Shown here: positions 30,716 to 39,997 of the stretch, one piece after another
Position numbering within the stretch: the first letter of the stretch is position 1
Layout of the letters: each line of letters opens with the position of its first letter
Source: Streptomyces sp. NBC_00525
Lineage (GTDB): Bacteria; Actinomycetota; Actinomycetes; Streptomycetales; Streptomycetaceae
Length of the DNA: 64,000 nucleotides
NCBI RefSeq assembly: GCF_036346595.1
Contig: NZ_CP107834.1
Coordinates: forward strand, 3,472,001 to 3,536,000
Reading direction: 5' to 3'
Notes under the pieces: generated by a model
Told to the model about the DNA's origin: nothing
Seen by the model: the letters and a program-made list of their open reading frames with translations, nothing else
Database searches by the model: none
Translations under genes and position numbers: made by a program

Positions 30716-31318
30716 ATGACCGACCCGGTGACGCTGGACCCCCGGCCCGAGATCGGCGAGTTCGACGAGAAGCGTGCCGAGGCCGCAGTCCGAGAGCTGC
30801 TGATCGCCGTGGGCGAGGACCCGGACCGCGAGGGCCTGCGCGAGACCCCCGGCCGGGTGGCGCGGGCGTACAAGGAGATCCTGGCCGGCTTGCGGCAGGA
30901 GCCCGAGGACGTTCTGACGACGACGTTCGACCTGGGGCATGACGAGATGGTCCTGGTGAAGGACATCGAGATCGTCAGTCTCTGCGAGCACCATCTGCTT
31001 CCCTTCCACGGAGTGGCGCACGTCGGATACATCCCGGCGGAGAGCGGCAAGATCACCGGTCTGTCGAAGCTGGCCCGACTGGTCGAGGTCTTTGCCCGGC
31101 GGCCGCAGGTCCAGGAGCGGCTGACCACACAGGTCGCGGACTCGCTGATGCGCATCCTGGACGCGCGGGGCGCGATCGTGGTCGTCGAAGCCGAGCACAT
31201 GTGCATGTCGGTCCGGGGCATCCGCAAACCGGGCGCCAAGACGACGACGTCGGCAGTGCGCGGACAACTGCGCGACGCGACCACACGGGCCGAGGCGATG
31301 AGCCTGATACTGGCTTGA
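30716..31318 (+). CDS. folE: GTP cyclohydrolase I
   Basis: A 200-residue enzyme for the first step of folate synthesis, GTP to 7,8-dihydroneopterin triphosphate. Zinc ligands are Cys90, His93 ([10 protein letters not shown]) and Cys163 ([11 protein letters not shown]). [20 protein letters not shown] and the [11 protein letters not shown] tail are family signatures. The homodecamer is cytoplasmic. The other folate genes, folP, folB and folK, are on the opposite strand from 35478 to 32953, separated from folE by the Hint endonuclease gene and the DUF3180 gene. Confidence 0.96.
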
Positions 31319-31346
31319 CAGTCGGATTGTCGGTGCCGGGACGTAA

Positions 31347-31382
31347 CCTCCCGATTCATGCGAGCGCGTGTGAATCGGGAGG
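31347..31382 (+). promoter_or_regulatory. Hairpin enclosing the ribosome site of the Hint gene
   Basis: CCTCCCGATTCA (31347-31358) pairs perfectly with TGAATCGGGAGG (31371-31382) over a 12-nt loop. The right arm contains the GGGAGG ribosome site six bases before the GTG at 31389, so the folded RNA would hide it. It may also terminate folE transcription, 28 bases after its stop. Confidence 0.75.
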
Positions 31383-31388
31383 GGCGCT

Positions 31389-32375
31389 GTGGGGGGATTG
31401 CCCAGTCGGCAAACGGTGAACGCGGTGGGAGGGCGGCAGCGAGCCGCAAACGTCCGCGTGGGCTCGGAGCTGTGGACGCTGGACGGAGACCGGACCGCCC
31501 GGACAACCGTGGTGACTGTGAGCGCTGCCAGGAGCCGTGAGGCCGTGGACGTGGTCACCAGCCATGCGACGTTCACCGTGGCTCCGGAGCAGTTGCTGGG
31601 GACGCCGGACGGCTGGGTGCACGCTCGCGATGCCGCAGGCACGGTGTTGGCCTGGGCGCAGGCCAGGAAGCTGTGCCGGAAGAGGCTGACGATCCGACCC
31701 GGCTACGAGTTCGGCTATTTCGTGGGTGCGACGTGTGCGGATGGCACCGTGGGCGCCAACTACGTCTCGCTCGTCGTGAACGACAAGGCGTTTGCCACGA
31801 AGTACGCCCGATGCCTGCGCAGTGCCACGGGGCTGTCCGCCCGTTTGGAGGCCGTGACCAGGCCCTCCGGCTATCTGGGGCGGGACGTACCGGGATTCCG
31901 GGTGCGCGTGGTCTCCTCGTACCTGGCCGACGCCATGCGCCAGTACACCGGCGGCGACGCGCACCACATGCGGCAGCGGTTCCCGCGTGTGGTCCTGCGG
32001 GACAGGGACGTGTTCGACGGATTTCTCGACGGGTACGCGGACGGGGACGGCTGCCGGAGCAGGACATGGGACGGCAGAGTGCTGGTCAGCGCGAATGTCG
32101 GGTTTCTGGCCGAGCTGGCACAGGTGATCGGGGCGCGGTTCACTCCCCGGCCGCGCGGGATCGCCTCTCATCTGGTCGTCGTCGACAACTGGGCCGCTCG
32201 TGGGACGTTCAAGGCAGAGCGGCACCCTGTCCAGCTCAAGGAGTCCGCCTGGGTCGAGGTCACCGCAGTTCGCGAGAGCACGGCGGTGGCCAAGCCGTTC
32301 ACCTTCTACACCTGCCGGCTTGACCCGTACCCGACGTTCCTCGTCAACGGGCACCTGGCCCGGCAGCCCTGGTAG
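31389..32375 (+). CDS. Free-standing Hint/LAGLIDADG homing endonuclease (intein-like)
   Basis: A 328-residue protein with the layout of a mini-genome intein but no host protein around it. An N-terminal Hint half (about 20-97) includes a block-B-like TSHATFTVAPEQLLGTPDGW. Two LAGLIDADG motifs follow: FGYFVGATCADGT (108-120) and FLDGYADGDG (212-221). The C-terminal Hint half ends YTCRLDPYPTFLVNGHLARQ, close to intein blocks F and G. The nucleophile at the first position and the terminal His-Asn are missing, so splicing should not occur. The catalytic acids of the nuclease motifs remain. The GTG at 31389 follows GGGAGGGG. It is inserted between folE and the reverse-strand fol genes. Confidence 0.8.
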   Translation: MGGLPSRQTVNAVGGRQRAANVRVGSELWTLDGDRTARTTVVTVSAARSREAVDVVTSHATFTVAPEQLLGTPDGWVHARDAAGTVLAWAQARKLCRKRLTIRPGYEFGYFVGATCADGTVGANYVSLVVNDKAFATKYARCLRSATGLSARLEAVTRPSGYLGRDVPGFRVRVVSSYLADAMRQYTGGDAHHMRQRFPRVVLRDRDVFDGFLDGYADGDGCRSRTWDGRVLVSANVGFLAELAQVIGARFTPRPRGIASHLVVVDNWAARGTFKAERHPVQLKESAWVEVTAVRESTAVAKPFTFYTCRLDPYPTFLVNGHLARQPW

Positions 32376-32392: not shown

Positions 32393-32878
32393 TCAGGCAG
32401 CCGCCGCGTTCGGTCTGTCGTCGTCGCGGTCGTCGGGGAGCTTGCAGATGTGTTCCAGGAAGAGGGCCGCGGCGATGACGGCGAAGCCGGCCAGGACCGC
32501 GAAGCCGGCGTAGATGGCCTGGTCGCGCCGGGGCGGGATGTCCAGGGAGCCGAGCAGGAAGACGGCGGTGCCGCCGTACATGCCGGCGACCAGGGCCACG
32601 ACGAGGGCGCTCGCCTGGGCGAAGACCAGGGCGCGGGCGGCCATCAGGGGCTCGACGCCCTTCGCGCCGGGGCGGCGTTCGCGCTGGGCGCGGAGCCGGG
32701 CGCGGATGGACAGGGCCGTGGCCAGCAGGACGACCGCGATCACCGCGAGCACGATGGGCGCGGCCAGCGGGACGCTGGGCAGGGTGCCGAAGGAGTCCCA
32801 GAGGCGGGCGCCGCCCCAGGAGAGGACCCCGGCGGCGGCGAAGAGGCCGGCCAGGACTCCGAGCCGTAGTTGCTTCAC
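32393..32878 (-). CDS. DUF3180 membrane protein
   Basis: A 161-residue membrane protein with four hydrophobic segments: LGVLAGLFAAAGVLSWGGAR, PLAAPIVLAVIAVVLLATAL, ASALVVALVAGMYGGTAVFL and YAGFAVLAGFAVIAAALFLE. It ends in an acidic tail. The arrangement and the MKQLRLGVLAGL start match DUF3180, which in actinobacteria sits at the end of the folate cluster. It lies downstream of folK on the same strand with a 74-bp gap. Its function, and any link to folate, is unknown. Confidence 0.87.
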   Translation of the reverse strand: MKQLRLGVLAGLFAAAGVLSWGGARLWDSFGTLPSVPLAAPIVLAVIAVVLLATALSIRARLRAQRERRPGAKGVEPLMAARALVFAQASALVVALVAGMYGGTAVFLLGSLDIPPRRDQAIYAGFAVLAGFAVIAAALFLEHICKLPDDRDDDRPNAAAA

Positions 32879-33920: not shown

Positions 33921-34141
33921 GCGAATCACTCCTGCTGTCGTTGGTCGTAGGGCACGGGGCCGTGTGCGGTCGGCCGGGTACCCGATTTCGAATCTACCCG
34001 CGCGCACCGACACCCTTTTCCCGCGGGGGAGGGCGTTCGGGCACGGAACAGATAGCCGCTGATACCCCGATGCGGCCGGTTCCAATCCGGCCGGACCCGC
34101 ATTCGAGCCCCCTTTGTGCCCCGCCGGGGGCACCGGCCGGC

Positions 34142-39866: not shown

Positions 39867-39997
39867 GGTTCCCCATTGTCGCGGGTGTTCTGTGAAGGAC
39901 ATGTTGCTGGAATACAACGGCTCCGGCGATTGTCAGTGGTCGAGGATAGGCTCGCCGGACATCAGTACGAGAAGGCGAACAGGGGGTGGGGGGACGG

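Follow-up and report, generated by a model that had tools for sequence, protein, structure and literature searches.

What is an intein-like endonuclease gene that lacks a host protein doing next to a folate gene? This question is raised by a 64,000-nucleotide stretch of Streptomyces sp. NBC_00525 (contig NZ_CP107834.1, positions 3,472,001 to 3,536,000 of the forward strand; hereafter the window, from whose first letter all coordinates are counted), in which folE, the gene for GTP cyclohydrolase I (30716..31318, + strand), is followed by a free-standing, apparently intein-derived LAGLIDADG gene with a GTG start that encodes 328 aa (HEG; 31389..32375, + strand). The right flank is a DUF3180 gene on the opposite strand (32393..32878, - strand), which served as species marker and whose stop codon lies 17 bp from that of the HEG. 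Interconversion between inteins and homing genes of the free-standing type is commonly assumed, but an intein parent and a free-standing escapee have rarely been observed at one gene.

Anatomy of the gene and its kin inside folE

The HEG is an open reading frame of its own, with an in-frame TGA upstream, and the folE of the window is uninterrupted; the HEG is thus not an in-frame insertion, as an intein would be. Its protein nevertheless adopts the Hint fold, with an N-terminal half (31389..31673, + strand) and a C-terminal half (32232..32372, + strand), and carries two LAGLIDADG motifs with catalytic aspartates, Asp118 (codon at 31740..31742, + strand) and Asp220 (codon at 32046..32048, + strand). 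A domain search returned LAGLIDADG_3 alone; the C-terminus is a Hint C-half, and structural matches included PI-SceI, I-DmoI, and I-SceI. An earlier note, made from the letters of the window, had proposed exactly this architecture, as well as the absence of an extein and of splicing residues and the position between folE and the opposite-strand DUF3180 gene, and all of these proposals held.

The residues used by inteins for splicing (i.e., Cys or Ser at position 1, T..H in block B, and a C-terminal His-Asn) are missing from the HEG protein, so that both halves of the Hint domain appear dead. Among 48 distinct full-length free-standing proteins, a set that includes one (L006) that stops about 22 residues short, Cys1 is replaced by Gly in 48/48; block B mostly reads A/S/G..L/Q, with Thr retained in two and His in one. 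The window protein has TFLVNGHL in its C-terminal half and Arg-Gln where inteins end in His-Asn; across the set, the final intein His has become Arg in 44/48, and Asn is absent from the states listed at the final-Asn position (47/48 shown). By contrast with these splicing positions, Asp118, Asp220, and Lys94 are conserved in all 48 proteins. With a median dN/dS of 0.18 (NG86; 96 pairs of 80-98.5 % identity), the HEG is, by this measure, under purifying selection.

Homologues were sought in genome contigs of 84,980 species, using only two short peptide patterns of alignment A1, and 80 loci were kept; as the list of FolE inteins derives from these two patterns, further inteins may be missed. Sixteen of the 80 loci are inteins in FolE, found in Amycolatopsis, Prauserella, Actinophytocola, Kibdelosporangium, Saccharopolyspora, and Halosaccharopolyspora as well as in two Gemmatimonadota and two Rubrobacteraceae MAGs. 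In these loci folE is followed by an element running from CVP.KQ to HL.HN and then by folE again from CEHH, which places the insertion point immediately 5' of the active-site Cys of CEHH. Fifteen of the 16 could be excised in silico from C1 to HN|C, giving 324-329 residues (excluding the +1 Cys) with no internal stop. One locus (L207) starts at a contig end, which leaves its left folE part out of view; in another (L195) the left folE part is in a different frame, probably through a sequencing indel because ftsH of the same locus is split too. The remaining 64 loci, all from Streptomyces except for one from Streptantibioticus (L181), are free-standing genes or remnants adjoining folE.

The window protein shares the Hint plus LAGLIDADG layout with the FolE inteins and is 50-57 % identical to them (nine inteins in alignment A2), but unlike it the inteins retain Cys1, T..H, and His-Asn and sit within folE. 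In a quick tree, for which no root was inferred, a single branch (SH-aLRT 100) separates the 48 distinct free-standing sequences from 15 intein sequences, so a single origin of the free-standing form suffices. Since the Hint fold of the free-standing proteins has decayed splicing residues, the likely direction of change would be from intein to free-standing gene. As judged from these comparisons, the most likely reading of the Streptomyces HEG is that of an intein that departed from its host gene, folE. The possibility raised in the earlier note that a host protein had been lost is supported, yet the note overlooked that this protein would be FolE, encoded by the adjacent gene, as it did the joint movement of the HEG with the folE 3' end and the two leader elements described below.

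Occurrence, decay, and the folE tract that accompanies the gene

HEG matches were detected in 33 of 295 Streptomyces genomes (19 near full length and 14 fragments) and in 7 of 394 genomes sampled class-wide, every one a Streptomyces, while DUF3180 is present in 294 of the 295. Traces of the HEG were called by tblastn (E<=0.01; in one locus, L094, by tblastn and inspection by eye). Frameshifts or deletions damage 14 of these 33 HEGs and 23 of the 64 non-intein loci named above. So many broken copies could mean that no strain makes an active nuclease any more and that the pattern is old history; with both aspartates and K94 kept in 48 distinct full-length copies, and with low omega, we find such a relic hardly credible. 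No match to a plasmid or phage vehicle was found (0/72,556 and 0/50,697 records). A 292-aa homologue from Streptomyces sp. CWNU-52B (P0100) is plasmid-borne according to its source and represents a possible vehicle. In one genome assembled in 260 contigs, an approx. 200-bp piece of that genome's own HEG lies within folK (L017, 3160-3366), reflecting either duplication or misassembly.

For comparisons between loci, 30 DUF3180 matches and 80 more regions were fetched in addition to the carrier loci; after dropping five duplicates and three loci without full folE, 137 loci with full folE were available, 136 of which were used for trees (L020, which has no DUF3180, was omitted). The gap between folE and DUF3180 has a median of 65.5 bp in the 100 loci without HEG traces. 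Large gaps in some HEG-free loci were considered as sites of other HEGs and rejected, as their longest ORFs look un-HEG-like by eye; one of these intervals (L142) holds an ORF that by eye resembles an aldo/keto reductase, indicating that this interval accepts other genes too.

FolE falls into two classes, A and P, which were assigned by one residue (EAEH or ECEH). Class P, with the signature CEHHLVPF, EPRG, and ECEH, accounts for 91 of the 137 loci, whereas the folE of the window is a class A allele. Class A folE was found in 21/21 full-length carriers of the first set and in 38 of the 41 intact carriers among the 64 named non-intein loci; the exceptions are L163 and L181, with class P folE, and L179, a mosaic. 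On a tree of folE from codon 55, with the diagnostic codons removed, the A/P label requires only two changes (three if third positions are used by themselves). The trees of folE codons 1-50, of the ftsH 3' end (126 rows), and of DUF3180, by contrast, require 31, 28, and 27 changes, as compared to means of 38.4, 34.9, and 38.5, respectively, for shuffled labels, with shuffles spanning 26-45.

Pairwise identities locate this conflict within folE. When each class A locus was paired with the class P locus of nearest DUF3180 (DUF identity >=85 %), mean identities over 43 pairs were 91.7 % for DUF3180, 92.9 % for folE codons 1-50, and 79.3 % for folE from codon 55 on; 82 control pairs of class P loci gave 92.0 % for DUF3180, 92.4 % for the folE 5' part, and 92.6 % for the 3' part. 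The window genome (L001) and L037, for example, share 97.3 % identity in ftsH, 93.2 % in folE codons 1-50, and 94.9 % in DUF3180 versus 79.4 % in the folE 3' part. For 36 of the 46 class A loci, the changepoint falls within codons 38-56 (full range, 12-81). In the window, the changepoint is at nt 164 of folE, and the part travelling with the HEG is placed at 30880..31318 (+ strand), 30880 being the first mismatch to L037 beyond the changepoint. Taken together, the trees, identities, and changepoints show that a tract that starts at about codon 55 of folE and includes the HEG was transferred between lineages. In the folE 3' part, carriers have a lower GC3 than class P, with a minimum at about codons 84-104, where class P dips too.

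A gene present in all Streptomyces, inherited vertically, with mutated nuclease residues would have spoken against the earlier note; we found patchy occurrence, flanks whose trees disagree, and intact aspartates, and the first two of these observations exclude a vertical, universal domesticated gene.

The possibility that the class A 3' end was brought from Pseudonocardiaceae together with the intein was rejected for now, as both classes are about equally distant from intein-bearing FolE. Over the 108 residues starting at CEHH, for which Pseudonocardiaceae provided the usable rows (three others were compared ungapped), class A and class P were, for example, 68.7 and 68.7 % identical to FolE of L186, 72.0 and 67.4 % to L193, and 69.4 and 71.2 % to L195, respectively; the class A 3' end, being no closer, was not simply delivered with the intein from those taxa.

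Class A folE also occurs in 15 of the 100 HEG-free loci. A pattern search found scars of the leader or the HEG start in five of these 15 (L080, L088, L104, L113, and L117) versus 0 of 85 class P loci, and a sixth (L108) was seen by eye; from their sequences, these six loci look like former carriers.

Predicted target site and leader

The insertion point of the FolE inteins corresponds, in the window, to the junction between 30982 and 30983, just 5' of the CEHH Cys, and the region surrounding it (30965..31000, + strand) is the predicted homing site. Among distinct folE, none of the 85 that adjoin a HEG, whether intact or decayed, has Ser-Thr in front of CEHH, as compared to 65 of 100 without (Fisher 1.5e-24; 201 loci, reduced to 185 once identical folE of the same state were removed). 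This includes 11 folE of class P with traces of the HEG, which have Ser-Ser or Ser-Cys instead. Because these sequences are related, independent pairs on the DUF3180 tree were evaluated: on well-supported branches, nine pairs gave means of 6.7 in agreement, 0 in disagreement, and 2.3 without difference (median p 0.016), and eight pairs restricted to intact HEGs gave 5.7 in agreement and 0 in disagreement (median p 0.031). Ser-Thr is also missing from 35 of the 100 HEG-free folE, a state that must hence have additional causes.

Kinship with the inteins and the Ser-Thr pattern together suggest a cut near the intein site (codon 90 in the window). The ends of the tract suggest an alternative cut at codons 38-56; these codons are at least 100 bp upstream of the intein site, and cleavage may take place there rather than at CEHH. 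In WHO elements of yeasts, the cut was where the tract ended (PMC7282813). The commonest codon for the CEHH Cys in class P is TGT (65/91), despite 92 % G or C at third positions of class P folE, a preference that is possibly the trace of a DNA-level constraint at this site.

Alternatively, ordinary homologous recombination could have spread the class A folE 3' end, perhaps on metabolic or antifolate grounds, with the HEG as a passenger whose nuclease plays no part. Coding changes in folE do form part of the moved tract, and 15 of 100 HEG-free loci do carry class A; however, six of these 15 bear the scars of former carriers, Ser-Thr is absent even from the 11 folE of class P that have traces of the HEG, and the HEG is under purifying selection (median omega 0.18) with both Asp in 48/48. 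We consider this hitch-hiking unlikely and continue with the reading in which the HEG itself acts on folE.

The region between folE and the HEG contains two further features. The first (31328..31349, + strand) is an exact match to TGTCRGTG-N8-TANNNT, a PafBC-type DNA-damage promoter motif; the mycobacterial consensus for PafBC promoters, TGTCRG-N10-TA-N3-T across -35 and -10, as given in PMC8151990, is present at this position. The full-length genes have 49 distinct leaders, of which 26 match the longer motif exactly, two with one mismatch, and 21 with two or more (exact matches in 0/2450 base-shuffled leaders); 19 of the 21 motif-poor leaders belong to one HEG clade, in which the -10 half and a hairpin are present and the -35 half is gone. 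The motif is not confined to the HEG, with 42 exact matches in the window genome (0 for the reversed pattern), 29-76 in 13 Streptomyces genomes, the window genome included (0-3 for the control), and 0-23 in eight genomes of the same order (0-3 for the control). Thirty loci were fetched, and Pfam was run on eight ORFs behind the motif that were hand-chosen by the author, which gives no rate; they comprise MgsA/RarA, a PD-(D/E)XK nuclease, an O6-methylguanine methyltransferase, an AlkZ-like glycosylase, a polymerase beta clamp, and an endonuclease III type protein as well as an HD phosphohydrolase and a TnpB-like protein. Two adjacent WYL genes in the window genome are candidates for pafB and pafC. 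According to PMC9380542, a first search reported the M. smegmatis PafBC motif as not conserved in S. venezuelae, a remark to which the over-representation in 13 Streptomyces genomes runs contrary. A regulon of the PafBC type in Streptomyces, an issue that PMC9380542 leaves undecided, is also suggested by the promoter link. PafBC is activated by single-stranded DNA (PMC11804915).

Several individual matches deserve mention. In the window, a second exact motif (33991-34012, - strand) precedes the folB ORF at a distance of about 61 nt, and a third (39931-39952, + strand) precedes an ORF that by eye resembles an ABC transporter permease (L254). Elsewhere in the window genome (L243, 1530-3020), the TnpB-like gene (OrfB_IS605, Cas12f1-like TNB) lies directly behind an exact motif and represents a second mobile-element nuclease that is possibly tied to DNA damage. 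In L012, an approx. 160-bp insert with inverted ends, MITE-like by eye, separates the folE stop from the intact HEG promoter motif.

The sharing of a PafBC-type motif between the HEG and repair genes, along with purifying selection, would also fit a domesticated nuclease that serves its host (e.g., in DNA repair controlled by PafBC), domestication being one of two possibilities raised in the earlier note. Such a role is at odds with occurrence in just 33 of the 295 genomes of Streptomyces, of which 14 have only fragments, and with the binding of the gene to one locus and one folE class (21/21 and 38/41 intact carriers), and we judge it very improbable. The other possibility, a selfish endonuclease without a host protein, is the one that agrees with patchy occurrence, a tract that moves between lineages, and decaying copies.

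The second feature is a 16-bp hairpin (31347..31382, + strand; MFE -31.5, z -4.27), the 3' arm of which contains the Shine-Dalgarno sequence GGGAGG (31377-31382) and the 5' arm of which overlaps the end of the -10 element. In an arm-swap test with 19 distinct stems of motif-bearing leaders and 328 swaps, arms paired at 11.42 of 12 positions with their own partner versus 6.36 of 12 when swapped between strains; comparison thus shows covariation, between strains, of this predicted hairpin over the ribosome-binding site. With transcription assumed to start 7 nt past the -10 element, predicted accessibility of the Shine-Dalgarno sequence rises in the shortened transcript from a mean of 0.25 to 0.42 (up in 15 of 19 leaders), and from 0.09 to 0.68 in the window. 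The same promoter-in-hairpin layout is described for I-TevI and other T4 endonucleases in PMC2988022.

Proposed homing mode and its relation to known systems

We think it very probable, reasoning from sequence comparisons, that the HEG is a former folE intein that lost splicing and would home from outside the gene by cutting sensitive folE alleles. In the mechanism we propose, damaged or incoming DNA would yield single-stranded DNA, upon which PafBC would switch on transcription of the HEG; the hairpin would mute read-through from folE, whereas transcripts initiated within its 5' arm would expose the ribosome-binding site. The HEG protein would then cut a sensitive folE, presumably near the former intein site, and, if a donor is present, repair of the break would bring in the resistant folE 3' end together with the HEG, as a copy that reaches DUF3180. 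The changed folE 3' end would shield the new carrier from cutting, and the HEG would decay once fixed.

The closest parallel is provided by the WHO elements of Torulaspora and Lachancea yeasts (Coughlan et al. 2020, PMC7282813). In both systems, an extein-free, intein-related LAGLIDADG gene lies downstream of a conserved host gene, whose 3' end has been replaced and has a history conflicting with that of the 5' end; separate transcription and protection through allelic difference rather than interruption, two further traits of WHO, would apply to the HEG as well. The HEG differs in being bacterial, in having folE rather than FBA1 as host gene, in encoding a protein without a zinc finger, in not forming clusters, and in having a damage-type promoter motif and an RBS hairpin; furthermore, its putative parent intein is extant in the same gene of other taxa. 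A duplicated host-gene fragment of the WHO type was not found downstream of the HEG, each locus giving one folE match (tblastn, E<=1e-3). Saccharomyces HO endonuclease resembles the HEG as a relative of intein endonucleases that functions without splicing, but it differs in acting at MAT and in not belonging to the repair template (PMC7282813).

Homing from outside the cut site is also a trait of phages. SegF, SegG, and MobE of T-even phages are of the GIY-YIG or HNH type, while the HEG is an ex-intein LAGLIDADG gene, as it appears, on a bacterial chromosome rather than in a phage genome. On "intronless homing", PMC2988022 describes for these phage enzymes a gene situated away from the cut site, co-conversion of flanking markers, and an RBS-sequestering hairpin enclosing the promoter, all of which would have counterparts in the HEG. 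Among the open-access papers listed in literature searches, none described an intein in FolE or a WHO-like element in bacteria. On balance, we favor the view that bacteria independently evolved a third, WHO-like structural class of homing element, in which an intein left folE, retained its nuclease, gained an ssDNA- or damage-gated promoter and an RBS lock, and operates as a natural cleave-and-rescue drive in Streptomyces, destroying folE alleles that are sensitive and providing a resistant 3' end in their place.

At folE, all stages are extant, i.e., the intein outside this family and partly in different phyla, the apparently escaped gene in Streptomyces, apparent former carriers, and strains free of traces, and the transition from intein to free-standing gene can therefore be tested step by step. 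If the proposed mechanism is true, a homing mode known from yeasts arose in bacteria as well, the movement of one end of folE between species, and not of the other, would be explained, and Streptomyces would harbor a naturally regulated cleave-and-rescue system.
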